42,194 bases of DNA from Nocardioides sp. (GTDB lineage Bacteria > Actinomycetota > Actinomycetes > Propionibacteriales > Nocardioidaceae): NCBI GenBank assembly GCA_025965335.1, contig JAOPXC010000043.1, forward strand, positions 1 to 42,194, read 5' to 3'. Below the pieces are notes generated by a model. It made no database searches and was not told the DNA's origin. It saw only the letters and a list, made by a program, of their open reading frames with translations. This document shows, one piece after another, positions 314 to 35,973 of this stretch. Position numbers and translations under genes: made by a program. Numbering within the stretch: the stretch's first letter is position 1; each line of letters starts with the position of its first letter.

Positions 314-1578
314 GGGATCTCCTCGTTGAGGGCGGGTGGGTAGAGCTCGGCGAGGTCGTCGCGGGGGGCGACCGGGCCCATCTCGGTCAGCGGGTCGGCG
401 TTGACCACGTTGGTGCCGACGAGACCGGGGGCCTGGGTGAACCGGCGGCCCGACCGGGACCTCTTGGTGCGCTTGGGCCGCGCGAGAAGCCGCGCGGTGA
501 TGAAGAGGATGAGGACGATGGCCAGCAGCACCGTGGCGGCCGCGAACGCGCGGGTGATCGCCACCGGCTCGCCACTGCGCACCGTCGTGTAGATGTAGAG
601 CGGCAGCGAGTTCATGACGCCGTCGGTCGGGTTGGTGACGAGGAACGTCGCGGCGCCCGAGGTCAGCAGCACCGGGCTCGTCTCGCCGACGCCGCGCGCG
701 ACGCCGAGGATCACCGCGGTGGCCAGGCCCGGCCGGGCGGTCGGCAGCACGACGCGCCAGACCGTCCTCCAGCGACTGGAGCCGAGCGCCAGGCTCGCCT
801 CGCGCAGGCCGCCCGGGACGACGCGCAGCACCACGTCGGCCGCGCGGGCGATGATCGGCAGCATCATCACGGCGATGGCGAGCGAGGCAGCGAGGCCGGA
901 GCGCGGGTAGCCGAGCGCCACGATGAAGACCGTGTAGATGAAGAGACCGGCGACGATCGAGGGCAGCGCGGTCATCGCCTCGACCACCGTGCGCACGACG
1001 CGGGCGAACGCGCCGCCGACCTCGGTCATGAAGATCGCGGTCCCGATCCCGAGAGGCAGCGCGATCGCGACGCCGATGCCGATCTCGATGAGCGAGCCGA
1101 CGATCGCGTGCAGGATGCCGCCGTCGGTGAACGGGTCCTTGGGGCCGACCCCCGCCATGTCGTCGATGTAGAAGTTCAGGTGCGGCAGCGGGCGCCACCC
1201 GCGCATCACGACGAAGGCGAGGGCGCTGACCAGGACTCCGGCGACGAGCATCGCACCGACCGTCACGACCGCACCGGCGACCCGGTCGCGGACCTCGATC
1301 ATCCCTCCGGTCAGGAGACCGGTCACCGCCGTGACGGCCAGGCCGGCGGCGAACCACATGATCAGGAACCACGGGAGGCCGGGCAGCGGCAGCAACCGCT
1401 GGGTGAGCAGCCAGGCCAGGCCGAACGCGGAGGCCCACGTGCCGATCCGGACGAACTTCTCGTCGATGGTGGTCCGGCCCAGCGACTGGCGGGGTACGGC
1501 GGGCGCCGCGTCCTCGTCGTACGAGGGCATGAACGTCTGACCGGCGATGGAGCTGCCGGTCTCGATCGTGGAGGTCAT
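310..1578 (-). CDS. pstA: Phosphate ABC transporter permease PstA
   Basis: Start reassigned to MTSTIETGSS (ATG at 1578) within the longer ORF; multi-TM; ALPSIVAGLFIYTVFIVALG and EASLALGSSRWRTVWRVVLPTARPGLATAVILGVARGVGETSPVLLTSG are PstA signatures. Confidence 0.93.
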   Translation of the reverse strand: MTSTIETGSSIAGQTFMPSYDEDAAPAVPRQSLGRTTIDEKFVRIGTWASAFGLAWLLTQRLLPLPGLPWFLIMWFAAGLAVTAVTGLLTGGMIEVRDRVAGAVVTVGAMLVAGVLVSALAFVVMRGWRPLPHLNFYIDDMAGVGPKDPFTDGGILHAIVGSLIEIGIGVAIALPLGIGTAIFMTEVGGAFARVVRTVVEAMTALPSIVAGLFIYTVFIVALGYPRSGLAASLAIAVMMLPIIARAADVVLRVVPGGLREASLALGSSRWRTVWRVVLPTARPGLATAVILGVARGVGETSPVLLTSGAATFLVTNPTDGVMNSLPLYIYTTVRSGEPVAITRAFAAATVLLAIVLILFITARLLARPKRTKRSRSGRRFTQAPGLVGTNVVNADPLTEMGPVAPRDDLAELYPPALNEEIP

Positions 1579-3657: not shown

Positions 3658-4392
3658 CTAACGTTCGTCGGACTCACTCGAGCCGTCGCTACGCAGCTCC
3701 TCGACGACGGCCACGGCCGCGAGCTGGGAAGCGACTGCCAGCTTGCGCAGCACGTTCTTCACCTGGCTCCGCACCGTCGCCTCGGAGACTCCGAGGCGTT
3801 CGGCGATGGTCCGCACGGTGATGCCTTCGTAGAGCATTGAGAGCACCACCTGCTCGCGCGGACTCAACGTGCCCAAGCGCACCCGCAACCGGTCCTGACC
3901 GACCTGCTCCGACCGCCACTCACTCACGAGCTCCGCTCGCTCGACCCCGCCGATGGGCGACTCACCCCGCGCGATCACCCGCAGTGACTCGACCAGCTCC
4001 GAGAGGGTGATCGTTGACGAGACGACCGCCCCCGCGCCCGCCTCGAGCATGGCGCCCCAGGTTGGGCCGCGGACACTCTCGGTCATCACCACCCACGGAA
4101 CGTCCCGGATGCTTCCGCGGATCCGGGCCTCGTCCAGCTGGGCGCGGTGCCCGAGATCGCAGATGAGCAGCAGGACAGCGGGACCCGACGACTCGCGGTC
4201 ATCGACGCGGGGGCGCGGCACGGGGCTCTCCGGCCACCACGGGACGATCGACACCCGCAGCCCTCGGCTGCGGAGTCCGGCGCCGATCGTCTCCGCGATC
4301 AGGCGCTGGTCCGACGACACCTCCACCCGCGCACCCTCGGACGACGCGGACCCGGCCGGGTCCGCGCCAAAGCGCTCTTCGGTCGGATCCAT
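3658..4392 (-). CDS. LuxR-type transcriptional regulator with receiver-like N-terminus (degenerate)
   Basis: C-terminal HTH LSPREQVVLSMLYEGITVRTIAERLGVSEATVRSQVKNVLRKL; N-terminal receiver fold without obvious phospho-acceptor Asp or conserved Lys. Confidence 0.85.
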   Translation of the reverse strand: MDPTEERFGADPAGSASSEGARVEVSSDQRLIAETIGAGLRSRGLRVSIVPWWPESPVPRPRVDDRESSGPAVLLLICDLGHRAQLDEARIRGSIRDVPWVVMTESVRGPTWGAMLEAGAGAVVSSTITLSELVESLRVIARGESPIGGVERAELVSEWRSEQVGQDRLRVRLGTLSPREQVVLSMLYEGITVRTIAERLGVSEATVRSQVKNVLRKLAVASQLAAVAVVEELRSDGSSESDER

Positions 4393-4446
4393 CGACTCGA
4401 TCGTGGACCCGCGAGACCGTCCGGGGGAGGTCGCGCGGCGAGTTCA

Positions 4447-4477
4447 CCCACTATTGGGGAGATTCGGGGGGCTTGGG
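4447..4477. promoter_or_regulatory. Conserved motif copy 1: CCCACTATTGGGGAGATTCGGGGGGCTTGGG, in the divergent regulator/histidine kinase intergenic region
   Basis: 26/31 identical to 36018-36048; contains inverted arms CCCA-CTAT-TGGG. Confidence 0.6.
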
Positions 4478-4740
4478 ACGACGAATTCCACGGTAAATTC
4501 ACAGAACTTCAACGAAACTCATTGCCAAGCCTCGTCGGCGTCCCTAATTTCTGGTATAGGCAACCAATTTTCATGAGACGTTCCCTCCGAACCGGATATT
4601 GCTGGTCCTGTGGGGTACGACACGGGAAGGCCGCAATCGAGCTGCGGCAGTTCTGTGCTGAGCAACGAGTACGGCGTCGGTCGACGATCGACGTATGCAA
4701 GCCGGGGGTGGGTGCATTGGGCACTGATGGAGAACCAGGC

Positions 4741-6138
4741 GTGGTCTGGGACGGGCCTTGGACTCTCGGCGTGCTCGCAGCGGTCGCCCTGCCCGCATTC
4801 CTCGCACCGCTGCTCGCCCCGGAGGGGAACCCGGTGACCCAGGTCGCCGGGCTGGGTGCGGTCGTCGCGTACGTCGCCGTCCTGTTCGCCGACCTCCTCA
4901 TCTACCTCCACTGGCGGATGACCGGCGGGCCCGCCAGCTGGCTCGTCCTGGCCCTCACGGCGCTCTCCATCCAGGGCCTCGCGGTCGCAGTTCTCGTGGC
5001 CGTGGATCCACTCAGGTCCGAGGATCATTCGACACGGATCGTCTTCGTCCAGGGACTCGTCGCGGTCGGCCTCTTCACACTGGTGGCGATCGCGAAGCGG
5101 CGCAGGCTCCGGATGGACCCGATCGTCGCCGGCGGGATCCTGGGCTTGGCGGTCGTCGGGGTTCGCTACCTGCTGGTGAACCACACCGGGTCCATGCACA
5201 CGTCCCGGACGACGGTCCAGATCCTGAACGTCACCGTGCTGCTCCTCGACCTGGCGATCGCTGCCGCCGTACTCCGCCTGACAATCGCGCCGGCCTGGGT
5301 CCGGATGCGCGTGGCGTGCGCGATGGTGCTGCTGAGCATCGGTCACGCCGCCACGTATCCCACGCCCAGCGGCACGTTCCTGAGCATCGTGTCGGTGTCG
5401 ACGAACCTTCTCGGAGCGACAGTCCTGCTCGCGCTGTCCATCACTCTCGTGCGCCTCTCGTGGTTGGACAACCGGGCGGCGCTGGACCTGCTGGGCTACC
5501 GGCTCGAGCAGGTCGAGGCAGGCGCGCGCATCGAGCAGGCACGGCTCCACGAGATCCGGGCAACCGTCGCCGGCCTACGGAACGCCTCCCGCCTCATCCA
5601 CCAGAGGTCGGCGATCAACGGGGACCGCAGACGCCAGCTCGAAGACATGATGGAAGCGGAGATGGGGCGTCTCCAGCGGATCCTGAACGATGAGACGGCG
5701 GGCGCCCCCGAGCTCGTCGACCTCGACGAGACCATCCGCCCGATCGTCACCCGGCACCGGGCTCTGGGATACCCGATCCGCTGGGTTCCTAGCGGAGAGC
5801 AGGCCATGGCCCGGGCCGACGACGTCGCCGAGGTCGTCAGCGTCCTCCTCCAGAACGCCGTCCACCATGCACCCGGTGCCGGAGCATCGATCGTCACCCG
5901 CAGGGTCGAAGGAGGGGTCGAGGTCGCCATCTCCGACACCGGTCCCGGTGTCGAACGTGCCGTGCGCTCGAAGATCTTCGAGTGGGGCGAGCGCGGGCGC
6001 GCGTCCGGCGGCAGCGGGATCGGCCTCAACGTCGCCCGACAGCTCACCACCGATCTCGGCGGCTACCTCAAGCTGGTCGAATCATCAGCTCCCGGCGCGA
6101 CCTTCGTGCTGGGACTTCCCTCGGAGGATGTGTCATGA
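4741..6138 (+). CDS. Membrane sensor histidine kinase
   Basis: GTG start chosen at 4741 (weak SD GGAG upstream; upstream part of the ORF is non-coding in character). Multiple TM helices, DHp-like ARLHEIRATVAGLRNASRLIH, HATPase motifs VLLQNAVHHAP, ISDTGPGV, GGSGIGLNVARQL. Confidence 0.85.
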   Translation: MVWDGPWTLGVLAAVALPAFLAPLLAPEGNPVTQVAGLGAVVAYVAVLFADLLIYLHWRMTGGPASWLVLALTALSIQGLAVAVLVAVDPLRSEDHSTRIVFVQGLVAVGLFTLVAIAKRRRLRMDPIVAGGILGLAVVGVRYLLVNHTGSMHTSRTTVQILNVTVLLLDLAIAAAVLRLTIAPAWVRMRVACAMVLLSIGHAATYPTPSGTFLSIVSVSTNLLGATVLLALSITLVRLSWLDNRAALDLLGYRLEQVEAGARIEQARLHEIRATVAGLRNASRLIHQRSAINGDRRRQLEDMMEAEMGRLQRILNDETAGAPELVDLDETIRPIVTRHRALGYPIRWVPSGEQAMARADDVAEVVSVLLQNAVHHAPGAGASIVTRRVEGGVEVAISDTGPGVERAVRSKIFEWGERGRASGGSGIGLNVARQLTTDLGGYLKLVESSAPGATFVLGLPSEDVS

Positions 6139-6833
6139 CCCAACAGATGGCCCGCAGCGCCGTGCGTGTAGCGATCATCGAAGACCACGCGCTCTTCGCC
6201 GAATCCTTGGAGCTCGCGCTCTCGCTGGAGGGGTACGACGTCCGCCGGACGCCCCACCAGGGCGCGGGCACCACCGTGAACGCGATGCTCGCCGCCGTCC
6301 TGCGGGCCCGGCCCCGGATCGTGCTGCTCGACCTCGATCTCGGGCCGTACGGTGACGGCGCCCGGCTCATCGCGCCGATGGCCGCGGCTGGCATCCAGGT
6401 CGTCGTGGTCACCGGTTCGCCGGACCGGCCGCGCTGGGGCGAGTGCCTGCGCAATGGCGCGCGCAAGGTGCACGTCAAGACCCAGCCCCTCAACGAGATA
6501 CTCGCAACGGTGCGGCGCATCAACCAGGGTTTCCCCGTCATCGACCGCTCCGAGCGAGACCAGCTCGTCCAGCTCTGGCGCGACCAGCGCCAGGAGCGCC
6601 ACCAGATGACTGAGCGCCTCCAGCTGCTCACACAGCGGGAGCAGCAGGTGCTCGGTCACCTGATGAGGGGCCGCACCGTCCGGGAGATCGCCGCCAACAG
6701 CGTCGTCTCCGAGGCAACGGTGCGCACCCAGGTGAAGTCGATCCTCGCCAAGTTGGAGGTCTCCTCGCAGCTGGCCGCGGTGGGCCTGGCGCACCACATA
6801 GGGTGGCGGCCCGTGACCGCCGTCTCCGCCTGA
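6135..6833 (+). CDS. LuxR/NarL-family response regulator
   Basis: Receiver VRVAIIEDHALFAESLELAL...RIVLLDLDLG...VVVTGS...VHVKTQ; HTH LTQREQQVLGHLMRGRTVREIAANSVVSEATVRTQVKSILAKLEVSSQLAAVG; 4-bp overlap with the kinase gene. Confidence 0.92.
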   Translation: MTQQMARSAVRVAIIEDHALFAESLELALSLEGYDVRRTPHQGAGTTVNAMLAAVLRARPRIVLLDLDLGPYGDGARLIAPMAAAGIQVVVVTGSPDRPRWGECLRNGARKVHVKTQPLNEILATVRRINQGFPVIDRSERDQLVQLWRDQRQERHQMTERLQLLTQREQQVLGHLMRGRTVREIAANSVVSEATVRTQVKSILAKLEVSSQLAAVGLAHHIGWRPVTAVSA

Positions 6834-8319: not shown

Positions 8320-8431
8320 GGCTGCGTGCTCCTTGCGGTCGAACGAGGTGAGCCAAAACTAAGCAAGCGCTGCCCGTGGCACATGCCTCAAATCAGGCAA
8401 CTCACGAGCCGTCGGGGCCGACATCCGGGCA

Positions 8432-8486: not shown

Positions 8487-11400
8487 CTAGTTGAGGGTGA
8501 CCGTCCGCCAGGCGGTCTTGGCCGATGTGTTCCCTGCGGAGTCGACCGCCGTGACCTGGTATCCGTACTTCCCCGTCGCGGGTGGCGAGAAGGTGTAGCT
8601 CCAGGTGGTGTTGGTCGACCCGGGTGCCGTCAGCGTCGTCGGCACGTTCGTGAACGCTCCCCACCCGGAACCGGTCCACCACAGCTTGCTGACCGTGTCC
8701 TGGATGTTGATCCGGACCGCCGTGGTGCCGGTGTCGTCGGTGACGTTGCCACCGATCGCCACCGACATGCCGGTGACGGTCGCATTCACCTGGGCCGGCG
8801 TCGTGACCGTGGGGCTCGGCGCCGTCGTGTCCGGACTGCCCGAGAGCGTGAAGCCCCGGGTTGCCGGCGATGCGTCGAGGTTGTTCGACGCGTCGACCGC
8901 CGTTGCGGAGACCGTGTAGCTGCCGGCCGTCCCACCGCTGAAGGCATACGACCAGGTCGCCGAGGGAGTTCCGCTCCCTGTCACAGCGGCGTTCACCGTG
9001 GCGCTCGTCGCGGACCACGCCGACCCGGTCCAGTACTGCCCCGAGCCGTTCACGATCGCGAGCCTCACTGCGGTGACCTGCTTGTCGTCGGTTGCGCCGC
9101 CGGTGATCGTCAGGTTCCCGCTCGGCAGGTTCGCGCCGTCGTCGGGTGCGGTGATCGTCGTGTCCGGCGCGACCGTGTCCGGCGCCTCGGACGTGACGTT
9201 GAAGACGACGTTCGGCTTGGTCGAATCGATGTTGCCGGCCGCGTCACGCGCCTCCACCGTGATCGTGTAGGCCCCGGCCGCCTTGGGCAGCCAGTCCCAC
9301 GACCAGGTGGTGCTCGGGCCACCCGGCGTGCCGAGCGTCGCCTCCCACGTGGTGTACGTGGTGCTGAACCCGGTCGACCCGGTGCCCGTCCAGTACCGAC
9401 CGTTGGCGTTGTTCTTCAGCACGATCCGGACCGAGGTGACCCCGATGTTGTCGGAGGCGTCACCGGTGAAGTGCACGGTCCCGAGCGGCAGGTTCGCTGC
9501 CGGCTGCGGCGGCGGCGCCGGGAACGTCAGGCGGCCGTCGGGTCGGACGGTGTCCGCGGTCGTCGGCGGCGGGATCGGCGGCGGCGTCGCCCCGGTCATC
9601 GCGAACGAACGCACCGTCGGCTGGCTCACGTTGCCGTTGTGGTCGCGCGTCCGCACCTCGGCCAGGTAGCGGCCCTGTCTCGACACGCCCGGGAAGACGA
9701 AGCGCCAGCTGACGCTGGTGGCCGGTGCGGTGGTCGCCGTGTACGACGCGAGCGAGTACGACTTGGTGGTCTTCCACGAGGAGTCGCTGGAGTCCCACCA
9801 GAGCCCCGTGGTCGCGTCCTGGACCGAGAGCTCGACATTGCCCACCGACGTGTTGTCGGCAGCGGTGCCGGTCAGCGTGACCGATGCGAGCGGCAGCACC
9901 GAGCTCTGCGCGGGGCTGGACACGACCGGGGTGGACGGGGCCGCCGTCTCGTAGGTCCGCAGGTTGTTGGTGTTGAAGACCTGGATCCGGTCGTTGCCGG
10001 AGTCGGCGATGTAGAGCCGGCCCTGGGCGTCGCAGTCGATACCGGCAGGACCCTTGAAGTCGTAAGGGTTCTGGCCGAACGTCTGTCCCCACCTGGTCGC
10101 GAAGGTGCCGTCGAGGTTCATCGCGGTGACCTTGGCTGCTGCCTCGTCCACGACGAAGACCTGGCCGTTGCAGTAGACGAGGTCGGCGATGTCCCTGAAC
10201 TGGCCGAGCGCGGTGCCCGAGGCGCCGTAGGTGGCCACCAGGTTGCCCAGCTGGTCGTAGACGCGGACCCGGGTGCCGCTCCCGATGTAGATGTTGCCGG
10301 TCGCCGGGTCCACGGCGGTGCCGCTGCCGGACACCGGGATGAAGTTGTGGTTGGGATCGACGTCCAGGGGCGTCATGTCGATCTCTTCGAAGGTCACCGC
10401 ATTGATGACCTTGACGCTCGACGCCATCCGGTCGGTGATGATCGCGACCTGGGTGCCGTCGGGGCGGGTGTAGAACTCCACGTCACCCGGCCAGCGGAAG
10501 TGGCCGTTGTCCGTGTCGTCGCTGCCGATCTGGCCGATCTGGCGCACGTACGTCGGAGCCCCGGTGGCGGTCGTGGGGGCGTTGTACACCTGGATGTGGT
10601 GGCCGCGCTCGTTGACGACCCAGATCCGTTTGGGCGTGGTGGCCGTGGCCGGCTGGACCGCGATGTGCCGCGGGTAGTTCATGTCGAAGGGACCGCCGGG
10701 TCCGCGCTTGCCCCAGGCACCCAGGGAGGTGCCGTTGGAGGAGAACCGCTGGAACCGCTGGGCCCAGGCATCCGCGACCCAGACGTCGCCCGTGGCTCTG
10801 TCGATCGCGGCGTCACGAGGCTGTGCGAGGAAGCCGACGGGTGGCTTGCGGGCGGGGGATGGCGCGCGCAGAAGTGGCGTCCCCGTGGGAGAGAACTTCT
10901 CGGCCTCGAAGCCGCCGAAGTCGCCCACCCAGAGGTTGCCGTCGTTGTCGACGTCGATCTGACGACCGCCACCGGCGAACTGTCCGGGTCCTTCACCCTC
11001 GCTGCCGAAGGAGCTGACGTAGGTGCCGTCGAGGGTGAAGATGTCGACGTCGGAATGCTCGGCGTCGACGATGTAGACGCGGTTGGTGGCCTCGACGGCC
11101 AGGACCCCGCGGTTGTCGCCGCCGGTCTGTGTCTCCCCGAAGGTCGAGAGGTAGGTGCCGTCCTTGGCGTAGCGGTAGGCCCGCCGGTTCCAGGCGTCGG
11201 AGAAGTAGAAGACGTTGTCGTCGGTGATGTCGATGCCGTAGATCCGCGCCTGGTTGGTTGCGCTGGTGCCGGGCGGGGTGACGTCCCACGCGCCAATCTC
11301 GTCCACGGTCTGGTTGGCGTCGTTGAAGTGCAGCCCGAGCATGCGGGGCGGGTTCTCCTCGCTCAGGGTGTTCGCCGTCACCGACAGGTTCTGGTAGTGG

Positions 11401-11936
11401 CTGTCCAGCACCCACACGTCGCCGGTGTCCTCCTCCACGGTCATCCACACGGTGTAGAAGGCGCGGTAGCGATTGCCCGTGTTCGAGCCGAAGTTCGCGT
11501 TGGCGGCGTACAGGTAGTTGCCGAACTTGTCGTACTTCGCGATCGCCACGGTCAGCGGGTTGTCCTTGAGCTCGGCCACGTAGATCGCACCGTCGTTCGG
11601 GTCGACCGCGATGCTGTACGGCTGACCGAGCGGGTCGGGACGGTAGAAGTCGCCAAGCGCGTTGCCCTGCTTGTCGTAGCGGCGGATCTTGAAGTTCAGG
11701 TAGTCACCGACGAGGACCTCGTCGGTGACCGGGTTGTACTGGACTCCCCATCCGAAGACGCCCGGCCGGCCCTGGCCACCGATGCTGCGCTCGAAGCGCG
11801 GCTGCTGGTTGGTGGTCAGCGCCGCCGAGGCCGTCGGGGGGGCCACCGCCGTGGTGACGATGCTGAGCATCGCCGCCATCACGACCGTGGCCAGCAGTGC
11901 GACTAGATGGCGACGCGGGCTTCTAGGGACTGACAT
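8487..11936 (-). CDS. Secreted NHL-repeat protein with four C-terminal Ig-like domains (NHL protein 1, class A)
   Basis: Start MSVPRSPRRHL (ATG at 11936); signal peptide ending PTASA; about 12 NHL-like units by eye (e.g. RLYIADSGNDRIQVF); four repeats of TAPxxxxxxPxxxxxxxxxxxxxGxxxDxxxVxxVxxxIxDxxxxxWW...TTWSYxFxxPxxGxYxxxVxAxDxAGN. Confidence 0.9.
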   Translation of the reverse strand: MSVPRSPRRHLVALLATVVMAAMLSIVTTAVAPPTASAALTTNQQPRFERSIGGQGRPGVFGWGVQYNPVTDEVLVGDYLNFKIRRYDKQGNALGDFYRPDPLGQPYSIAVDPNDGAIYVAELKDNPLTVAIAKYDKFGNYLYAANANFGSNTGNRYRAFYTVWMTVEEDTGDVWVLDSHYQNLSVTANTLSEENPPRMLGLHFNDANQTVDEIGAWDVTPPGTSATNQARIYGIDITDDNVFYFSDAWNRRAYRYAKDGTYLSTFGETQTGGDNRGVLAVEATNRVYIVDAEHSDVDIFTLDGTYVSSFGSEGEGPGQFAGGGRQIDVDNDGNLWVGDFGGFEAEKFSPTGTPLLRAPSPARKPPVGFLAQPRDAAIDRATGDVWVADAWAQRFQRFSSNGTSLGAWGKRGPGGPFDMNYPRHIAVQPATATTPKRIWVVNERGHHIQVYNAPTTATGAPTYVRQIGQIGSDDTDNGHFRWPGDVEFYTRPDGTQVAIITDRMASSVKVINAVTFEEIDMTPLDVDPNHNFIPVSGSGTAVDPATGNIYIGSGTRVRVYDQLGNLVATYGASGTALGQFRDIADLVYCNGQVFVVDEAAAKVTAMNLDGTFATRWGQTFGQNPYDFKGPAGIDCDAQGRLYIADSGNDRIQVFNTNNLRTYETAAPSTPVVSSPAQSSVLPLASVTLTGTAADNTSVGNVELSVQDATTGLWWDSSDSSWKTTKSYSLASYTATTAPATSVSWRFVFPGVSRQGRYLAEVRTRDHNGNVSQPTVRSFAMTGATPPPIPPPTTADTVRPDGRLTFPAPPPQPAANLPLGTVHFTGDASDNIGVTSVRIVLKNNANGRYWTGTGSTGFSTTYTTWEATLGTPGGPSTTWSWDWLPKAAGAYTITVEARDAAGNIDSTKPNVVFNVTSEAPDTVAPDTTITAPDDGANLPSGNLTITGGATDDKQVTAVRLAIVNGSGQYWTGSAWSATSATVNAAVTGSGTPSATWSYAFSGGTAGSYTVSATAVDASNNLDASPATRGFTLSGSPDTTAPSPTVTTPAQVNATVTGMSVAIGGNVTDDTGTTAVRINIQDTVSKLWWTGSGWGAFTNVPTTLTAPGSTNTTWSYTFSPPATGKYGYQVTAVDSAGNTSAKTAWRTVTLN

Positions 11937-12051
11937 GTCTGGATCCCCCTCGGGATGGACGAAAGCCCGGCACTCGCCTGGCATCCGGATCAATCTCGCA
12001 CCGTGGGTGATGACGGGTCATACCCAAGATCGGCCAAAGATCAGCTGGCCC

Positions 12052-12924
12052 TCATCGATATCCGTGGTCCGCGAGCGAATGTCCGAGGACCGACTCCATG
12101 GCGGATATGTCGTCCGGCGACAGGTCGTCGCGGAAGGCCTGCGCCCGTCCGGACGAGAAGCGGTAGCGGGCGAACTCCGCTGCGTACGGCGGCGTCCAGT
12201 CCAGGCCCACCCGGGCAAGGATCTGGCCCACCTGGTCGCGGGGATCGGCAACGAGGTCCTCGTAGCGGACCCGCACCCACTGGTCCTCGGGGACCCGCAT
12301 GCGGGCCTCGTCGTAGGCCTCCATGAGCAGCCGCCAACCCAGGGCGGCCAGCACCGGGAACGATCTGTCGTGCTTGCGCCAGAGCTCGTCCAGCGGCTCC
12401 GGCAGCGGCCCCAACAACCATTGCTCCGGACCGCGGTGCCCATCCCACCAAGGCATCTGGAGCCACGAGCTCGCCACCGCCCGGCCGTCGCGGACGACCT
12501 CCACGAACACCGCGTCCGGGAAGCACGCGCGCAGCAGGCCGGCCCGGGGCCACCCGGTGAGCTTGTGCAGGAAGACTGGCGCGCCCAGCCGCTCCGCCCG
12601 GTCGGCCACGAACCTGCGCATTCGGTCGCGGATCCAGGGCGTCGCGTCTGCCTCCGTCAGGTCGCGGACCGGGTCCACCAGCATCGGACCCACCTCACGG
12701 GAGAGGACCCGGTAGCCCTCGGACGGGGCGAAGCGGAGCCCGCCCTTGCGGGTCACCCGCGCGGGGAGGCGGCGCCAGGCTCGGTTCTGCCAGGCGGCGC
12801 TCCGGAGCAGCCCGCGGTCGTCCAGGTTCGTGATGAAGCCGGTCTGCTCGTGCCGGGCCAGGACCTCGTGCACCAGCGTCGAGCCACACCGGCCGGTGCC
12901 GAGCACGAAGACCGGTCGGCTCAC
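12052..12924 (-). CDS. Sulfotransferase family protein (1)
   Basis: N-terminal PAPS-binding PVFVLGTGRCGSTLVHEVL; 3'-phosphate-binding-like VVRDGRAVASSWL; RYEDLVADPRDQVGQIL. Confidence 0.88.
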   Translation of the reverse strand: MSRPVFVLGTGRCGSTLVHEVLARHEQTGFITNLDDRGLLRSAAWQNRAWRRLPARVTRKGGLRFAPSEGYRVLSREVGPMLVDPVRDLTEADATPWIRDRMRRFVADRAERLGAPVFLHKLTGWPRAGLLRACFPDAVFVEVVRDGRAVASSWLQMPWWDGHRGPEQWLLGPLPEPLDELWRKHDRSFPVLAALGWRLLMEAYDEARMRVPEDQWVRVRYEDLVADPRDQVGQILARVGLDWTPPYAAEFARYRFSSGRAQAFRDDLSPDDISAMESVLGHSLADHGYR

Positions 12925-13838
12925 GGCCGGTAGCCCATGGCCGTGAGCATGTCCTCCTGAAGAACGGTGGCGCGTTCGTAGACGTGGTCGTGCGACACCT
13001 GGCGGTTGCGATCCGGGAAGCTGAGGTGCTCCAGTGCCTGGTGCCAGCTCGGGTCGGCCCCGAGCCCGGCGAACTCCGCCACGTCCCCCAGCGTCTGGTT
13101 CGGCGCGGACACGAGATCCTCGTACGACACGCGGCAGACCCGCTCGGGCGGCAGGCCCGCCAGGCCGTACTCGATCAGGCCCACCTCACGGACCCAGTGC
13201 TCCGCCGCCGCGTCCACGGGGTTGTGGCCGGTGCGCGCCCAGTCGATCGGCGTCCCTTCCCACCACCACAGGTCGTGTTCGGGCCACCAGTCGACGTAGA
13301 GCAGCGAGTTGGCGACCGCCCGGCCGTCTCGGGTCACGGCCACGAACCGGGCTTCGGGGAAGACGGCCGCGAGCAGGGGGATGCGCAGGTTGTGCCCGAT
13401 CCGCTTGGAGATCACGACGTCACCGCCGGACGCCCGCGCAAGCCGACGGAAGTCAGCGCGCAGGCGAAGCTGCTCCTCGTCCGCGGACGACGCGGCTCCC
13501 GGGCGCAGCCCGCGCCGCTCGAAGACGGGCTCGCCCTCGACCGGCTGGGGGAACCAGCGCTCGAGCACCGAACGAGGGAGTCCATAGCGATAGGCCTCGT
13601 CACCCGCCTCGCCGAACCAGACCCGCTCGCGGGTCCGCGGGGCCATGGCGGCCAGCCGGTTCAGCGCAGCGAGCTCCGGGAGCGCCGGTAGCCGTCGACA
13701 GTAGTTGCTGATCCAGGCCGCGCGAGGGTGCAGGGCCAGGCATCGGTAGAGCAGGGACGTACCCGAGCGCGGGGCACCCAGCACAAACACCGGAGTGGAG
13801 TCCTTCGCCCTGTCCCGACTCGATGTTCGTGCGGTCAT
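12921..13838 (-). CDS. Sulfotransferase family protein (2)
   Basis: TPVFVLGAPRSGTSLLYRCLALHP; VAVTRDGRAVANSLL; VSYEDLVSAPNQTLGDVAEFAGL; 4-bp overlap with sulfotransferase 1. Confidence 0.9.
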   Translation of the reverse strand: MTARTSSRDRAKDSTPVFVLGAPRSGTSLLYRCLALHPRAAWISNYCRRLPALPELAALNRLAAMAPRTRERVWFGEAGDEAYRYGLPRSVLERWFPQPVEGEPVFERRGLRPGAASSADEEQLRLRADFRRLARASGGDVVISKRIGHNLRIPLLAAVFPEARFVAVTRDGRAVANSLLYVDWWPEHDLWWWEGTPIDWARTGHNPVDAAAEHWVREVGLIEYGLAGLPPERVCRVSYEDLVSAPNQTLGDVAEFAGLGADPSWHQALEHLSFPDRNRQVSHDHVYERATVLQEDMLTAMGYRP

Positions 13839-13929: not shown

Positions 13930-13965
13930 CAAGTCCATATCCCTAACGTTGGGGATATGAACTTG
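13930..13965. promoter_or_regulatory. 36-bp near-perfect palindrome in the divergent promoter region (candidate operator)
   Basis: CAAGTCCATATCCC-TAACGTTG-GGGATATGAACTTG: 14-bp arms with 13/14 matches and an AACGTT-centred spacer, between divergent genes starting at 13838(-) and 14088(+). Confidence 0.75.
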
Positions 13966-14087
13966 AGGACCGCGATCGCCGCACCAAACGCTGCCTAGCC
14001 TCCAAAGGGCGTCGAGCGGGGGATCAGATGCAAACTCCCCGCCGTCCTGCGAGACCAGAGAGCCGTGTGCATCCACGGAGCCGAGAC

Positions 14088-15050
14088 ATGCAACTCATGA
14101 CTGTTCTCACCCGGGCGGGTGCAGCACGCTGGTTGCTCCTCGTCGTGCCGCTGGTGGCCGTCGTCGCCACCATCGGCCTGACCTTCCAGCAGGAGCCCGA
14201 CCGGTCCACCCTCGCGACGGTCTCCGTGGTCGCACCCGAGGGCCAGAGCACCGCCGCCACCGTCAGCCAGTCCGTGGACAGCTTCCGCTCCGCCATCGTG
14301 TCCGAGTCCGTGGTCGAGTCGGCGAGCAACGACGCCGGGGTGGCCGTGTCCGCCAGTCGCGACATCAGTGCCACGCGGATCGGCACCTCGAACCTCGTCG
14401 ACATCACGGTGCACACCCAGGCTGGTGAGGATGCGGAGGCGCTGATCCGGGCGCTGGTCTCGAACACCAACGCCGTCCTGTTCTCCTCGACCCTGACCGC
14501 GGCGGAGACCCGGGCCGAGCGAGCCGCGAAGCGCTACGAGACCGCCCTGAAGGACCGCGCCAGCGAGACCCATCGCAGCGGCCTCGTGCTTCCGATCGAG
14601 TCCTATCGTGCCAAGGCCAGCGAGGTGACGCAGCTGCGGGTCGCCCTGGCCACGACCCTGGGCGACCCGGCCGTCGACCGCGCGGCGCTCGTGGGCCGGC
14701 TCGCCGAGGCGGTGCGCGTTCGCGACGCGATCGGCGCCAACTTGGAGACCTACGAGTCCGTGCAGGACGCGGTCGTGCGGACCAGGGCCGAGCAGGCAAA
14801 CGCGGCCCTCCAGCTCGACGCGGTCCAGACCCGCAAGGCGGCGGCCACGTCGTCGGAGTCCGTGACGATCTCAGACACCCATCCCCAGTCCCGACAGACC
14901 CTTCTGGTCCGCGCGGGCGTCGCTGCCCTGGTGGTCGGCCTGGGGGTCGGTGCCGGACTGGTCCTGGCAATCGGGCTGCTGCGAGAGGGCCGGCGCAACC
15001 GCAACGGCGTCGCGACTCCCGATCCGCCCGCTTACTCCCTGGTCGGCTGA
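14088..15050 (+). CDS. Wzz/polysaccharide co-polymerase-like chain-length protein
   Basis: Start MQLMTVLTRAG (ATG 14088); N-terminal TM (WLLLVVPLVAVVATIGL), long helical periplasm-type region, C-terminal TM (VGLGVGAGLVLAIGLL); no kinase domain; translationally coupled (TGATG) to a sulfotransferase. Confidence 0.7.
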   Translation: MQLMTVLTRAGAARWLLLVVPLVAVVATIGLTFQQEPDRSTLATVSVVAPEGQSTAATVSQSVDSFRSAIVSESVVESASNDAGVAVSASRDISATRIGTSNLVDITVHTQAGEDAEALIRALVSNTNAVLFSSTLTAAETRAERAAKRYETALKDRASETHRSGLVLPIESYRAKASEVTQLRVALATTLGDPAVDRAALVGRLAEAVRVRDAIGANLETYESVQDAVVRTRAEQANAALQLDAVQTRKAAATSSESVTISDTHPQSRQTLLVRAGVAALVVGLGVGAGLVLAIGLLREGRRNRNGVATPDPPAYSLVG

Positions 15051-16018
15051 TGGGCGCGGGATTCGACCCCACGCGGGTCCTGTACGTCGGCGGTACCGGC
15101 CGCAGCGGCAGCACCGTGCTGGCCAACGTGCTGGGCGAGCTCGAGGGCATGGTGAGCGTGGGAGAGGTCAGGTTCCTGTGGCAACGCGGGATCCTGCAGA
15201 ACCGACTGTGCGGCTGTGGACTGAGATTCGGCCAGTGCCCGTGGTGGTCCGAGGTCCTGGACCTGGCTCTGGGACCCGGCACCGATGCCGCCCGGGCGGA
15301 GCTGGCGGTCCGCACCCATCAGGAGCTGACCCGACGAACGCGCCTCCGGCAGCTGCCGACCGCGCTCGCATCCCATCGCCTGCGGGTCACCTTGCGGCCC
15401 GACGGCGAGCTGGAGGATGTGCTCGGCAGGGTCTACGCCGCCATCTCGGCGATGGCCGATGGCGCCGTCGTCGTCGACTCCTCGAAGCTCCCCACCTACG
15501 CGGCCATGCTCGCCACCATCGAGGACGTCGATCCGCACGTGGTGCACATGCTGCGGGACCCGCGCGCGGCGGCGTACTCCTGGCTCCGGAACAAGCACCA
15601 ACCCGATCTGGGTGCCGACGCCCGGATGGAACGGCGGAGCGCGGCCAAGAGCGCCGTCCTGTGGGCGGTGTGGAACCGCGCGCTCGAGACCCTGGTCTCC
15701 GACGTCCCGAACCGCTACGCCCGCATCACCTACGAGACCTTCCTGTCGCAGCCCGACCCGGAGCTGCGCCGGGTGCTCGAGGCCCTGAACCTGGAACCGT
15801 CCGCTCGTGACCTGGAGCGGGTCTTCGCGAACCCGCGGGGAGTGCAGCTCTCCACCAACCACACCGTCGCCGGCAACCCGGCCCGGCACCAGCACGGCCT
15901 GGTCCCGATCGTCCTCGACGACGAGTGGACCCGGTCCATGCGCGGGGTGGACCGGCGGGCGGTCACCGCGCTGACCCTGCCCGCCCTGCGGCACTACGGC
16001 TACCGTCTCGCCGGCTGA
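15050..16018 (+). CDS. Sulfotransferase family protein (3)
   Basis: RVLYVGGTGRSGSTVLANVLGELEGMVSVGEVRFLWQRGILQNRLCGCGLRFGQCPWW; VHMLRDPRAAAYSWLRNK; ITYETFLSQPDPELRRVL. Confidence 0.9.
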   Translation: MGAGFDPTRVLYVGGTGRSGSTVLANVLGELEGMVSVGEVRFLWQRGILQNRLCGCGLRFGQCPWWSEVLDLALGPGTDAARAELAVRTHQELTRRTRLRQLPTALASHRLRVTLRPDGELEDVLGRVYAAISAMADGAVVVDSSKLPTYAAMLATIEDVDPHVVHMLRDPRAAAYSWLRNKHQPDLGADARMERRSAAKSAVLWAVWNRALETLVSDVPNRYARITYETFLSQPDPELRRVLEALNLEPSARDLERVFANPRGVQLSTNHTVAGNPARHQHGLVPIVLDDEWTRSMRGVDRRAVTALTLPALRHYGYRLAG

Positions 16019-16025
16019 GGTCGTG

Positions 16026-17552
16026 ATGCGCGGTCGCCGGCGACGCCTCGGTGCCCGGCCGGACCACCGACGGCTGACCCGGTCGCACGCGCTCGTCGGG
16101 ATCCTGGTGGCGGCTCTCCTGGTGACGGGCACGGCCGCCGGCTGCTCCGGTGGACCGGGTTCCGGACCGCAGGAGCCAAACCCGTACTCCAGCGCCCTGC
16201 CTCCCCCAGCGGGACCGCACGGCGCCCCCGGCACCGGGGCCCTGGGGCTCAAGTGGAGCTGGTTCCAGCCCGACACGTTCGGGTACGTCCGCCGCCTCCC
16301 GGGGGGCTGGACGTTCACCGAGGTCGAGTGGTGCAGCGTCGAGCCGGTGCCGGGTGCCCGCGACTGGGCGGAGCTGGACCGGATCGTGGCGCAGGCCCGG
16401 GACCTCGGGCAGGCCACCATGATCAAGCTGCGGACCGGCCAGTGCTGGGGCACGACGCCGGATCAGGGAGGCGGGATGGACCTGAGCGAAGCCAGCCGCA
16501 AGACCCCGTCAACCCCGCCCACAGACCTCGGTGCCTACCTGAGTTTCGTCTCCGACCTCGTCACCCGGTACGCCGCGATGGGCGTGCACGCCTATGCCAT
16601 CGAGAACGAGATCGACGTCCAGAACTTCTGGGCGGCGCCGGTCGCGACGTACGACGCACTGGCCCGGGCGGTTGCACCGGTGGTGCACCAGGCGGACCCC
16701 CACGCCGATGTCCTGGACGCGGGGCTGTCCAGCACCGCCTACGGCGTCGCCCTGGCCAACGCGCAGCTGGACGCCGGCGACGAGGAGGGCGCGCTGGCCA
16801 CGTACCAGCTGCACTACGGCCGCAGGATGGCCGGCGGGGTCTCCCGGTGGCCGACGGTGTTCGACGCCACCGGCCTGCGGGAGGTGCTGGCCACCGAGCC
16901 GGCCCGGCGCAGCATCGACGCGGCCGAGCTCGCGGGCCGCCTGGTTCGCGACCGGGTCGTGGATGCCTACCAGCTGCACTTCTACGAGGGCACCGAGGCG
17001 CTGCGACAGGTGCTGGTGCACCTCGACGAGCAGCTCGGGGACACGGGCCGTGTCGAGGCCTGGGAGATCGGCACGGCCTGGCCGGGCGCCGACTTCGACG
17101 AGCGCGCGCATGCCGAAGAGCTCTTCCGGGACGCCGCGCTCCTCCTTGGCCACGGCGTCCGACTCATGGTCTACCTGCCGCTGGCGTGGACCGACGACGG
17201 CGGACCCCAGGTCTTCCGGGGCTTGATGAATGCCGACGGCACGTTGCTTCCCGCCGGTCGGGGTTGGCTGGCCCTGGCCGACGAGCTCCCCCACCTGGCG
17301 GACGCCAAGGTGATCACGTTGGGCGACCCCGGGGATCCCCTGGGCAAGGCGGGTCTCGTCGGGGTCGTCTGGAGCGGCGCCGGTCACTCCGCCGCGCTGG
17401 TGTGGGCGGTCGGGCCACCGGTGCAGCTGCCGGCCTCCGGTGTCGACCGGGTGCTGGACGCCACCGGTGCGGAGCTGGACCCGGACCTGCCGGTGGGCGA
17501 CCAGCCCGTGCTGGTGGTCGGGTCAGCGGTGCACCGCTTGACCTCCGGCTGA
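16026..17552 (+). CDS. Putative lipoprotein, clan-A-like (beta/alpha)8 glycoside hydrolase
   Basis: N-terminal hydrophobic segment and lipobox-like TAAGC; AYAIENEIDVQNFW resembles the GH-A acid/base NE motif; VEAWEIGTAWPG is a candidate nucleophile region; extended barrel-like fold. Confidence 0.65.
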   Translation: MRGRRRRLGARPDHRRLTRSHALVGILVAALLVTGTAAGCSGGPGSGPQEPNPYSSALPPPAGPHGAPGTGALGLKWSWFQPDTFGYVRRLPGGWTFTEVEWCSVEPVPGARDWAELDRIVAQARDLGQATMIKLRTGQCWGTTPDQGGGMDLSEASRKTPSTPPTDLGAYLSFVSDLVTRYAAMGVHAYAIENEIDVQNFWAAPVATYDALARAVAPVVHQADPHADVLDAGLSSTAYGVALANAQLDAGDEEGALATYQLHYGRRMAGGVSRWPTVFDATGLREVLATEPARRSIDAAELAGRLVRDRVVDAYQLHFYEGTEALRQVLVHLDEQLGDTGRVEAWEIGTAWPGADFDERAHAEELFRDAALLLGHGVRLMVYLPLAWTDDGGPQVFRGLMNADGTLLPAGRGWLALADELPHLADAKVITLGDPGDPLGKAGLVGVVWSGAGHSAALVWAVGPPVQLPASGVDRVLDATGAELDPDLPVGDQPVLVVGSAVHRLTSG

Positions 17553-18767: not shown

Positions 18768-19999
18768 TCTCTCGCGCCTGCCTCTCGGTAGAGCTCGGTG
18801 ATCGCTTCGAGATGGTCCTTCGGGTTGTGCTCCAGCTCGGCCACGCGGCGCGCCGCAAGACCGCGCCGGCGGGACTCCACGGCGCTGCCCAGCGCCTCCC
18901 GCAGGGCGCCGCGAAGTGCCGGCACGTCGTCGGGCGGCACCACCCAGCCGGTCGTGTCGTCGACCAGCTCCGGGAGCCCACCGAGGTTGGTGGCCACCAC
19001 CGGGACGCCGAGGGCGAAGGCCTCCAGCACCGCGAGGGGCTGGTTCTCGTGCCACCGTGACGGGACGACGCACACCGCGGCCTCCCCCACCAGTTCCTGG
19101 AGCTCGGGCCGGCCCAGTCGTCCGTGGAAGCGCACCCGGCCCGGCGCCTCGGCGGCCGCAAGAGCCTCGAGCGCCGGACGTTCGGGGCCGTCGCCGGCGA
19201 CGTCGAGGAGGACGCCGGGAGGCAGGTCGAGCCCGGCGATCGCGCGAATCAGCGTGTCGATCCCCTTCTCGGGCGACAGTCGCCCGGCCACGACGGCGCC
19301 ACGTCGGACCGGAGCCCCGAACACGACGTCGAGCTCGGTGAAGTTCGGGAGCACCCGGACCCGGTCGCCGGGGATCCCGCCGGCCGTGACCTGCTGGGCC
19401 AGGAACCTGCTGGGCGCAACGAAGACCTGGACCCCGTCGTAGGCCCCGAACCAGCGGTGCAGGCTGACCTCGACGGCGGCAGCGGTGCTGGCCGCCCGGC
19501 TGCCGTCCTTGCACGCGCGCCGGACGGCCGGCCAGGGCGTGCGTCCCACGCACGCCGTGCAGATCTGGCCGTTGTCGAGGAACTGGTAGGTCGGGCAGAC
19601 CAGCTTGTAGTCGTGCATGGTGAGCACGATGGGGATCCCGCGCTGCCGGGCGGCATGCAGCACCGACGGCGACAGCTGGTGGTAGATGTTGTGGGCGTGC
19701 ACGACGTCGGGCCGGAACTCCTCGATCGCCTCGTCCATGCCGCGCCGCGCCGAGGTCGACCACACCATCCGGCCCAACCGGGCCACCTTCGCGGGAACCC
19801 CGGCCGGCGCCGGCTCGAACTCGACGTAGGCCGGCGGCCGGCCGGCGGAGGGCTGATCGTTGTCGGGATGCTCCATCCCGAAGTAGGCCACCTCGTGCCC
19901 GGCGGTCCGCTGGAGCGCGGCCAGGTCCAGGAGGTACCCCTCGGCGCCGCCGCGCCGGTACAGGAACTTGTTCACGTGGAGGATGCGCACGCGGCTCAC
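18764..19999 (-). CDS. GT4-family glycosyltransferase (2)
   Basis: GTG start at 19999 (VSRVRILHVNKFLYRRGGAEGYLLDLAAL); DVVHAHNIYHQLSPSVL; VVAGRLSPEKGIDTLIRAI; PSRWHENQPLAVLEAFALGVPVVATNLGGLPELV. Confidence 0.93.
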   Translation of the reverse strand: MSRVRILHVNKFLYRRGGAEGYLLDLAALQRTAGHEVAYFGMEHPDNDQPSAGRPPAYVEFEPAPAGVPAKVARLGRMVWSTSARRGMDEAIEEFRPDVVHAHNIYHQLSPSVLHAARQRGIPIVLTMHDYKLVCPTYQFLDNGQICTACVGRTPWPAVRRACKDGSRAASTAAAVEVSLHRWFGAYDGVQVFVAPSRFLAQQVTAGGIPGDRVRVLPNFTELDVVFGAPVRRGAVVAGRLSPEKGIDTLIRAIAGLDLPPGVLLDVAGDGPERPALEALAAAEAPGRVRFHGRLGRPELQELVGEAAVCVVPSRWHENQPLAVLEAFALGVPVVATNLGGLPELVDDTTGWVVPPDDVPALRGALREALGSAVESRRRGLAARRVAELEHNPKDHLEAITELYREAGARE

Positions 20000-22935
20000 C
20001 CCTTCCTTGTCGGCTGCCGGACGGGCCGGTTCGCGGATCGCGACATCAGGGCCCCTGAGGCCAGCGCAGCGCCCGTGCCCGCGATGCCCATCACGTAGAG
20101 GCCCACCACCACCTGGGACATCAGGTTGGCGACCAGGCACATCAGCACGTAGCCGGCCGCAGTGCCGGCGAAACCCACCGCCAACGCCCGGTCCGGGCCG
20201 GTGGTGCCGCGGGTGCGCCGAACCGCCCGGGCCGCGGTCGCCAGCAGCTGCCAGGTGAAGTAGAGGTACGCCGCCAGGCCGAAGATGCCCATCTCCACAT
20301 AAGCGCGCAGGAAGTCGTTGTGTGGTTGCTTTCCTTCGGCGGCCCGCGCCGCCACCTGCTTGAGACCGATGCCGGTCACGGGGCTGTCCGCCGCCAGCGT
20401 CAACGCCTCCCCCCAGTACTCCGCGCGCCACGTCAACGAGTTGCTGGGCTCGCCCCGCGACGTGGTGTCGTCGCCGAGGTCGGAGAAGCGGGTCGCCACG
20501 CCGGGGACGAGGGCCAGGAGCAACAGCAGCGTGACCAGCACGGTCCCGACCAGGCGTCGGCTGCGGGTCATCGCGACCACCAGCACGCCGACCAGGGCTG
20601 CGAGCCAGGCCGCCCTCGTGTAGGTCATGTACAGGCCGGCGGCGGTCGCCACCAAGCCCAGGACCGCCCACGCCCTGGGCCCCGGTCGCCGGAGGTGCAC
20701 GACGTGCGCGAAGGCCAGCACCACGAGCAGCGCGAGGAAGGCCGCCAGCGGGTTGGGGTGGGTGAAGGTGCCGCGCGCCCGACCGAAGCCACCGATCTGC
20801 AGCAGTCCCGTCCCGGACCAGGTCTGGTACGACGCGACGACCAGCGGGACCACCGCGGCGGCGAACACCGCGACGACGAGGTGCCGCCGGAAAGCCGGCC
20901 TGGACCCCAGCCGCTCGGCGACCAGCACCATCACGCAGACGCTCGCGAGGCGGGTCCACTCGACGAGCGCGGGCCAGTACGACGGGGCGACGAGCACCCC
21001 GACCAGGCCCGCTCCGGCGAAGCAGATCGCCGCCCAGCCGAGCGGGCTGCAGCGGACCCTGCCCTCGGCCACCCACTGGGTCGCCAGCCACACCGCCGCG
21101 GCACCCAGAAACAGCATCCCCAGCAGGGCCGCGGGTTCCAGCGGCGAGCCGGAATGGCCGAACTTGAGTGCGTCGAGCGACGTGCGGGCGACGAGCAGGG
21201 CCAACACGAATGCCTCGAACCGGGCCATGGCCAGGGCCAGGGCGATCCCGCCGGCGATCAGACCGACCGGTGCCACCAGGGCCACGGTGGACCCGTCCGT
21301 GACGAACGCCATGGACGTCGCGGTCACCGCCGCGGCTCCGACGACGGCCATCGCCGCGGTGCCCACGACAGATGTCGCGCCCGACTCCGCGCCGACCAGC
21401 CTTCTGGCCCGTTGCCCCGGGGCCGACCGGCGGAGCTCGACGGCGAAGTTCGCGAGCGCACCCCCGACCCCGGCCACCGCCAGCCGAAGGAGCCCCCCGC
21501 CGGGCAGCCAGTCTCCGGTGGTCCACAGCAGCGCGGCCACCCCCGCGCCGGTCAGTCCTGCGGTCAGTGTCCTCGCCACCCGGCGTGGCGGCACGTGCGG
21601 CATGCCGAGGTCACCACGGCGCAGGCAGATCCACGCGTGGACCACATTGACGACGTTGGCAACGACGTATGCCGCCGCCACACCGAGCACCGCGTAGCCG
21701 GTCCCGAGCAGCGGCAGCACGCACAGCGGGAGTGCGACCAGGTTCGCCACCGCACCGGCCAGCGAGTTGCGCAACGGCGTGCGGGTCTCACGCGTCGCGT
21801 AGAAGGGGAGGAGCAGCGAGCGCTGTACCGCTGAGGCGGGGAACGAGAGCGACAGCACCACGATCACGAGGCCGAGGAGTCGTGCGTCGTCCGGGCCGAA
21901 ACGGCCGATGCCGAACACCGTCTCGGCTGCGGGCACCGCCAGCACGAGACCCAGCCCGGTCAGGGGGAGCGACACGCTCACCATCAGTCGCAGCCCCAGG
22001 GAGCTCAGCCGGTCGACGGCCTGCCGGTCCCGGGTCGCGAAGGCGCGGGTGAGCCGCGGCAGCACGGCCACCATCACCGAGCGGAAGAACATGGTGCCTC
22101 CGACCGCCGACACCAGGCGGTGGGCGTAGTGCAGGACGGTGGCCGAGCCGGGAATCAGGAACGAGGCCACCGCCGTCTCCGCGACCCGGACCAGGGGGTT
22201 GAGACTGGCACCCACCGAGGGGCGTACCAGCAGGCGCACGAGGGTTGCGGCCTCGGCGTCGCGCGGTGCAGGGGCCGCGAACCGCAGGCCGCGGCGTACG
22301 GCGTAGAGCAGCATCAGGATGAACTGGACGGCCGAGCCGCACAGGAAGGCCACCGGCAGGATGCCGATGTCGCCCGTCCCCAGGACGATGATGGCCGCGG
22401 CGACCACGTTGAGGACGACGGTCATCGCTGCTGGTACGACGAAGAGGTGTCGCGCGTTCAGCCAGGCACGAAGCACCTCGCAGCCGGCCGTGAGCGGGAT
22501 CGTCCACACCATGACCCGCAGCAGCTCGGTGGCCAGCACGCGCTGCTCGGCGTGGAAGCCCGGCGCGGTGACGGCCACCAGCACGGTGCCGAACACACTG
22601 AACACGGCGGCCACGGCGGCGCCGAGCGTCAGCGAGGCGAGCAGCGTGGTGGTGACCAGACTGCGACCGCGCCGCCGGTCCAGCGTCGCCGACCAGGTCG
22701 TCATCGTGGGCACCAGCGCCTGGTTGCCGAGCAACATGAAGATCGCGGTGAGGGCGAGCGGGAAGCGCGCGGCGACCACGAACGCGTCGGTGTCCCGGCC
22801 GGCGCCGAAGGCCGCGGCCGCGACGACGTCGAGGAGCAGCCCGGTCGCCACCGCAACCGCTGCGGTGCCGCCGGTGAGCACCGACTGGCGGACGACCACG
22901 TCGTTGTCGGCGCGCAACCGGTGGGCGCTGTTCAC
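19996..22935 (-). CDS. Fusion protein: MurJ/Wzx-like flippase (N-terminal half) plus Wzy/O-antigen-ligase-like polymerase (C-terminal half)
   Basis: GTG start at 22935 (VNSAHRLRADNDVVVRQ). N half: VAAAAFGAGRDTDAFVVAARFPLALTAIFMLLGNQALVPTM... (MviN/MurJ-like). C half: GRARGTFTHPNPLAAFLALLVVL, YMTYTRAAWLAALVG, TGIGLKQ...QPHNDFLRAYVEMGIFGLAAYLYF (O-antigen ligase/Wzy_C). Single uninterrupted ORF. Confidence 0.9.
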   Translation of the reverse strand: MNSAHRLRADNDVVVRQSVLTGGTAAVAVATGLLLDVVAAAAFGAGRDTDAFVVAARFPLALTAIFMLLGNQALVPTMTTWSATLDRRRGRSLVTTTLLASLTLGAAVAAVFSVFGTVLVAVTAPGFHAEQRVLATELLRVMVWTIPLTAGCEVLRAWLNARHLFVVPAAMTVVLNVVAAAIIVLGTGDIGILPVAFLCGSAVQFILMLLYAVRRGLRFAAPAPRDAEAATLVRLLVRPSVGASLNPLVRVAETAVASFLIPGSATVLHYAHRLVSAVGGTMFFRSVMVAVLPRLTRAFATRDRQAVDRLSSLGLRLMVSVSLPLTGLGLVLAVPAAETVFGIGRFGPDDARLLGLVIVVLSLSFPASAVQRSLLLPFYATRETRTPLRNSLAGAVANLVALPLCVLPLLGTGYAVLGVAAAYVVANVVNVVHAWICLRRGDLGMPHVPPRRVARTLTAGLTGAGVAALLWTTGDWLPGGGLLRLAVAGVGGALANFAVELRRSAPGQRARRLVGAESGATSVVGTAAMAVVGAAAVTATSMAFVTDGSTVALVAPVGLIAGGIALALAMARFEAFVLALLVARTSLDALKFGHSGSPLEPAALLGMLFLGAAAVWLATQWVAEGRVRCSPLGWAAICFAGAGLVGVLVAPSYWPALVEWTRLASVCVMVLVAERLGSRPAFRRHLVVAVFAAAVVPLVVASYQTWSGTGLLQIGGFGRARGTFTHPNPLAAFLALLVVLAFAHVVHLRRPGPRAWAVLGLVATAAGLYMTYTRAAWLAALVGVLVVAMTRSRRLVGTVLVTLLLLLALVPGVATRFSDLGDDTTSRGEPSNSLTWRAEYWGEALTLAADSPVTGIGLKQVAARAAEGKQPHNDFLRAYVEMGIFGLAAYLYFTWQLLATAARAVRRTRGTTGPDRALAVGFAGTAAGYVLMCLVANLMSQVVVGLYVMGIAGTGAALASGALMSRSANRPVRQPTRKG

Positions 22936-23942
22936 CCGCGCCCCGCGAGGACCCGTCGAGCCGAGCGCTCGGCGGCCAGGCCGAGCTCGAGCTCCAGCTC
23001 GGTGCAGGCGGCACGCACCCGCAGGTCGAGGTCGCTCCGCCTCGGACGGCCGGCACGGCACTCGATGCCGGCCGTCATGGCCGGGGAGAACCGCATGCCG
23101 AGAAAGCGAGCCAGGATCTCCACCTCGGGCTCGGGATCGGCGACCACCCGGTCGTAGGAGACGAGGTGCACGTCGCGACGCCGGTCCAGACCCTGCTCGA
23201 GGTACAGGCGGTTGCGGACCAGCCAGAACAAGGCGGCCGCGGACACTGGGCTCAGCGTGGCGGGACGCAGCCGGCGGATCAGCTCAAGCGAGGACTCCGA
23301 GAGGCCGTGCGCCTGCCAGCGGCCGGCAGCGGTGCCGTCGGCTATCTCCGTGAGCACCCTTCGGTTCACGTCGCCGAACTTGTGCACCGCCGACCGGGCT
23401 CGGGCGTCGACGTCGCGATAGACCCAGACCGCCAGGGGGGCCGGGCCGTCGCTGGTCGCGACCGAGGTGAGCAGCTCGGCGGTGCGGTGACTGTCGCACA
23501 GCGGCTTGAAGAGCACGACCGCCGAGCGGCTCCGGGCGACCACTCCACGCACCACGTCGTCCTCACGCAGGCAGAACCGGTCGAAGACTCGACTGTCGTT
23601 CTCGTTGTGGGTCTCGACGGAGGGGTCCCGCTCGATGCCGCGCACGATCATGTTGGTGCCGGATCGCTGCACGCCGACGACGAACACCGCCCGGGCCGCG
23701 CCGGCGGGTACGCCGTGCTCGGCCCGCCATTGACGGGCGGCCCGGGCCGAGCGGAGGCGTTGTCTCGGATCGAGGTCGTCCTCCTCGACCAGCCGGGCCA
23801 AGCCGTCGTGACGGGCCCAGGCGACGTGCCGGTACACCCGGGCACGTAGCCGGCCGCCCGCGGCCCGGTCCTCGGGCAACGACCCGGTGCCGAGCTCCCA
23901 CGTCATGGCTCGGGCGAAGGACCTGCGTGAGCTCTGGAACAT
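22932..23942 (-). CDS. Sulfotransferase family protein (4)
   Basis: AVFVVGVQRSGTNMIVRGIERDPSVETHNENDSRVFDRFCL; VWVYRDVDARARSAVHKFGD; LVSYDRVVADPEPEVEILARFLG. Confidence 0.82.
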   Translation of the reverse strand: MFQSSRRSFARAMTWELGTGSLPEDRAAGGRLRARVYRHVAWARHDGLARLVEEDDLDPRQRLRSARAARQWRAEHGVPAGAARAVFVVGVQRSGTNMIVRGIERDPSVETHNENDSRVFDRFCLREDDVVRGVVARSRSAVVLFKPLCDSHRTAELLTSVATSDGPAPLAVWVYRDVDARARSAVHKFGDVNRRVLTEIADGTAAGRWQAHGLSESSLELIRRLRPATLSPVSAAALFWLVRNRLYLEQGLDRRRDVHLVSYDRVVADPEPEVEILARFLGMRFSPAMTAGIECRAGRPRRSDLDLRVRAACTELELELGLAAERSARRVLAGRG

Positions 23943-26861: not shown

Positions 26862-26872
26862 GGGTGGTCCCC

Positions 26873-35873: not shown

Positions 35874-35973
35874 GGGCGGCTGCCTGTGGTGGTCCGGAAG
35901 TCGCGCATGACTGAGCGACTCGCCCATCCTCGGGAGGGGGTCGGCCGTGCGAGCCGCGCGGCCGGACCTTTCG

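Follow-up and report, generated by a model that had tools for sequence, protein, structure and literature searches.

Introduction

The enterobacterial capsule regulators are RcsB and its partner RcsA (PMC4125116). In Streptomyces, the orphan regulators BldM and WhiI control development, and the BldM homodimer has the 16-bp palindrome TCACcCgnncGgGTGA as its site (PMC4125116). The locus described here lies in a stretch of 42,194 nt from Nocardioides sp., hereafter the window. It resembles the RcsB/RcsA system in that LuxR/NarL-type regulators accompany polysaccharide genes and a phosphorylatable regulator is paired with an auxiliary one, but its operator and its genes are different and the auxiliary protein, LuxR1, is a pseudo-receiver protein. 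With BldM and WhiI it shares actinobacterial, atypical response regulators, whereas the operator sequence differs and a kinase lies next to a regulator whose receiver is intact (RR2). Both systems are precedents for paired regulators; that LuxR1 and RR2 might heterodimerise is our conjecture by analogy with them.

Known families offer looser parallels. In NCBIfam, RR2 (72 bits) and LuxR1 (49 bits) both match the MadR family response regulator (NF047785) best, and these scores are far under its 300-bit cut-off, so neither protein belongs to that family. EpsA, the XrtB/PEP-CTERM-associated regulator (TIGR03020), is likewise an exopolysaccharide-linked regulator with a LuxR-type domain, but the locus regulators match it in the HTH region alone, at 29–33 bits against a cut-off of 170. 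A literature search found no description of the motif or of the cluster; the regulon is new, although its kind is already known. The locus supplies a testable operator sequence, with a testable set of target promoters, for a Nocardioides surface-polysaccharide cluster, as well as a natural test case in which a pseudo-receiver protein and a genuine response regulator, almost alike in their recognition helices, may use one set of sites.

Regulators and Polysaccharide Genes of the Locus

Gene luxR1 (3658–4392, minus strand) codes for a GerE-type regulator, as judged from its Pfam GerE match and from alignment, and is followed on the plus strand by a histidine kinase gene, HK (4573–6138; Pfam HATPase_c), and by RR2 (6135–6833; Pfam Response_reg and GerE), a NarL-type response regulator. 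The receiver residues of RR2 (the acidic pair, D66, T93 and K115) are kept in 21/21 orthologues, as expected of a phosphorylatable regulator. Neither the phospho-acceptor Asp nor the Lys occurs in any of the 21 orthologues of LuxR1, which is therefore a pseudo-receiver regulator and does not qualify as phosphorylatable. The two proteins are homologous over their length and carry almost identical recognition helices (SEATVRSQVKNVLRKL and SEATVRTQVKSILAKL); in the simplest view, both would recognise one operator.

According to Pfam and NCBIfam, the neighbouring cluster contains an EPS-type initiating sugar phosphotransferase, a glycosyltransferase and an LCP glycopolymer transferase, and its product is likely a sulfated, wall-attached polysaccharide. 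Sulfation is suggested by four sulfotransferase genes (12052–12924, 12921–13838, 15050–16018 and 22932–23942). The cluster also codes for four large proteins with NHL repeats and Ig domains, all on the minus strand (8487–11993, 23967–26876, 26873–30757 and 31221–35873), and for a 1021-aa product (19996–23061, minus strand) in which a MurJ-family flippase domain is fused to a Wzy_C (O-antigen ligase) domain. Two further genes on the plus strand (14028–15050 and 16023–17552) are conserved, with homologues in Nocardioides sp. SR21, and have no Pfam or NCBIfam match.

The Two 31-bp Copies

The first-pass annotation had singled out two sequences, at 4447–4477 (copy 1) and 36018–36048 (copy 2), as a motif shared by two distant promoters. 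Their coordinates and sequences are exact, and they are identical in 26/31 positions. Apart from its own 1-bp slide, this is the sole pair of plus-strand 31-mers in the window with at least 26/31 identity in which even one partner is intergenic. The remaining 223 pairs at that threshold all involve coding DNA in both partners, presumably mostly NHL repeats, and no such pair occurred in two Markov-shuffled windows. The 19-bp core, allowing up to three mismatches, occurs in only two places of the 4.27-Mb assembly (85% complete), namely the two copies. Their assigned context also holds: copy 1 lies between luxR1 and HK, whose likely start is ATG 4573, and copy 2 between NHL4 (minus strand; likely start at about 35873, judged from the signal peptide) and LCP (plus strand; start at ATG 36073 or 36085).

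It had also been argued that a C-to-A change at position 1 is compensated by a G-to-T change at position 12. The pair of changes does keep the inverted arms, but it is a single event and weak as an argument by itself, so we set it aside. The 31-bp form did not survive as the operator unit, since it was not found in the other Nocardioides genomes searched. The right half of copy 1 (4464–4477, plus strand), common only to copy 2 and not kept in relatives, therefore does not belong to the conserved operator. Searches with the 16–19-bp core of the repeat gave nothing convincing in 59 relatives and 220 genomes of the genus, and the search unit was therefore shortened; isolated core matches in three genomes (G044, G160 and G188) were rejected because they lack the palindrome.

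A Conserved Palindrome Accompanies the Regulator Genes

The conserved unit is a palindrome of about 20 bp, approximately TATCCCCAANNTTGGGGATA, seen in full form in the stronger copies and centred where the CCCA-CTAT-TGGG arms of copy 1 have their centre. This inverted repeat has a size that fits an HTH dimer, as expected of operators of the NarL/LuxR (GerE) type. We compared the LuxR1/HK region in eight other Nocardioides genomes in which LuxR1, HK and RR have stayed together, and in all eight a related site precedes the start of luxR1 (e.g., CCCATAATTGGGGA, CCCAGAATTGGGGG, CCCAACATTGGGGA and CCCAGATTTGGGGA; in G080, CCCCCGATTTCGGGATGA, with a PWM score of 17.4). With up to two mismatches, the core gave 33 matches in the 1.5-kb regions upstream of the 29 HK homologues, a count in which one palindrome may figure repeatedly, both strands having been read, compared with no match inside the HK bodies, five downstream and a mean of 2.9 upstream for scrambled patterns. 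Counted by locus, 21 of the 29 have an upstream match (mean of 2.7 and maximum of 10 with scrambled patterns).

The site also follows the regulator. Within 600 bp upstream of HK, and with up to three mismatches, it is present in all 20 loci with LuxR1 as opposed to two of the nine without it, or three if a weak match in L036 is counted, a comparison from which phylogeny was not removed; L019 was scored as lacking LuxR1, its match being the RR2 gene. Thus, although the 31-bp form is missing from relatives, its palindromic core is not, and the proposal of an operator for the local LuxR regulators was of the right kind and is now supported by comparison of genomes. Copy 1 very probably contains a conserved operator to which the NarL/LuxR-type regulators of the locus, RR2 and/or LuxR1, bind as a dimer, and through which they would switch the cluster. 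We infer binding itself, the identity of the binder and the sign of regulation. As two loci (L018 and L021) have the site and RR2 and, in the stretch examined, no LuxR1, the association does not separate LuxR1 from RR2. Locus L036 (G025, contig 6) has a LuxR1 homologue without HTH (about 816–1304, minus strand) and no good operator, an anecdotal observation consistent with use of the site by LuxR1.

It is unlikely, given how closely the sites track luxR1 (20/20 versus 2–3/9 loci), that they serve instead some different regulator, for instance a global factor that merely counts the LuxR and RR genes among its targets. The link between sites and regulators is entirely one of co-location, and some palindromes are found in loci without a detected homologue of the window proteins (e.g., L063–L068), as such a factor would predict; however, the sites are clustered at the locus, and few genomes have any exact palindrome (17 of 121). 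A very strict search for TATCCC...GGGATA across the family retrieved matches only in this genome and one other. A looser pattern scan of the own genome (up to three mismatches) gave seven places versus five for the control, which is near background.

Probable Operator Sites in the Window

We scored the window with a symmetric PWM trained only on the LuxR/HK loci of other Nocardioides, the own genome being excluded. The five best sites start at 13937 (20.2), 4442 (19.8), 35968 (18.5), 4538 (17.2) and 12018 (14.3), compared with a best score of 10.5 on average and 16.4 at most in 30 shuffled windows. Four of them, all except that at 4442, had gone unnoticed in the first-pass annotation. All five are outside assigned genes, in intergenic DNA amounting to approximately 2.5 kb of 42 kb, a figure that depends on the choice of start codons. 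For each of sites A to F, described below, the syntenic cluster of Nocardioides sp. SR21 has a counterpart in the corresponding position.

Site A (GTTCACCCACTATTGGGGAGAT; 4442–4463, plus strand), upstream of luxR1, contains the arms of copy 1 and is the site found at the same place in the eight other genomes. Site B (GCGTCCCTAATTTCTGGTATAG; 4538–4559, plus strand), in the HK-RR promoter, merges with a putative extended −10 (TGGTATAG); CTGGTATAG is kept in SR21, and similar sites ending in TGGTAT precede HK in other genomes. Upstream of the initiating sugar transferase, the operator-like site C (ACATGCCTCAAATCAGGCAACT; 8381–8402, minus strand) is weak, its score of 7.3 being at chance level by itself; its core is identical in SR21 and similar sites lie just past RR2 in two other genomes (L092 and L093). 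Site D (TCATACCCAAGATCGGCCAAAG; 12018–12039, minus strand) is upstream of NHL1, and its CGGGTCATACCC block is kept in SR21. Site E (ATATCCCTAACGTTGGGGATAT; 13937–13958, no strand assigned), in the divergent Sulf2/14028 promoter, is the best of the window and also the best palindrome genome-wide, with ATCCCCAATGTTGGGGA at the same place in SR21. Site F (CTTTCGCCAAATTTGGTCATGG; 35968–35989, no strand assigned) occupies the divergent NHL4/LCP promoter; CGGACCTTTCGCCAAWTTTGGT is kept in SR21 and a similar block exists in G204 (L046:13183).

The arms of copy 2 fall within a weak operator-like sequence, site G (GGGTGACCACTATTGGTGAGAT; 36013–36034, plus strand), whose score of 8.2 is a chance-level value taken alone and for which there is no counterpart in the syntenic SR21 cluster. 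The conserved site of the NHL4/LCP promoter is the one at 35968, 45 bp from copy 2. Copy 2 is credible mainly through its likeness to copy 1, and is probably a species-specific accessory site; we would guess that the identity of the two 31-mers outside the palindrome stems from a short local copying event. Of the original proposal, the connection of copy 1 with the LuxR, HK and RR genes and its sharing with structural genes stand, as does the link from the two-component system to the structural genes, through the stronger sites at 13937, 35968 and 12018; the 31-bp unit, the compensatory argument and the key role given to copy 2 are weak.

In the model that we favour, RR2 and/or its pseudo-receiver cousin LuxR1 would bind the copy 1 operator as a dimer, and the same operator would front luxR1, the HK-RR operon, NHL1, the sulfotransferase/14028 pair and NHL4/LCP, with a weaker form at the initiating sugar transferase. 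With an operator common to these promoters, the two-component system would switch its own genes along with the cluster for the polysaccharide and its wall attachment. The merging of site B with the putative −10 suggests autoregulation at the HK promoter, and the sites at the other promoters are upstream of the genes, which is compatible with activation. More speculatively, LuxR1 and RR2 could heterodimerise, or compete for shared operators, in a switch similar to that of RcsA/RcsB, here controlling a polysaccharide that is sulfated, attached by LCP and accompanied by secreted NHL propellers; by analogy we regard this as possible, though doubtful.

The position of the two copies, in the same orientation, 31.5 kb apart and roughly bracketing the polysaccharide cluster, is also what direct repeats at the ends of an acquired island would show, whether att-like or derived from a duplication. 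This origin is very improbable, because related sites occur inside the cluster and elsewhere too, site A is kept beside luxR1 in genomes without the present cluster arrangement, and no integrase or transposase domain was found among the proteins searched; an att-flanked genomic island was consequently rejected. There is as little to recommend a shared coding sequence, although both copies read TIGEIRGA in one frame with three of the five differences synonymous (PTIGEIRGAW in the HK frame; TTIGEIRGAR within an ORF of 22 codons upstream of LCP). We rejected it because relatives keep the palindrome and not the letters after it, and the small ORF and LCP are in different frames.

Sites beyond the Cluster

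Nocardioides sp. SR21 has a strong extra operator (L054:8116; PWM score of 20.3), absent from the window, upstream of a second RR2-like gene adjoining LCP. In the own genome, the two next-best palindromes are elsewhere. One of them, GTCCCCAACATTGGCGAT, is on contig 43, unlinked to the window, about 130 bp upstream of a fifth, NHL4-like NHL protein gene (G000:C43, L082:4343–9034), a full-length paralogue 66% identical to NHL4. The other is on contig 457, just past an ORF of 847 residues.
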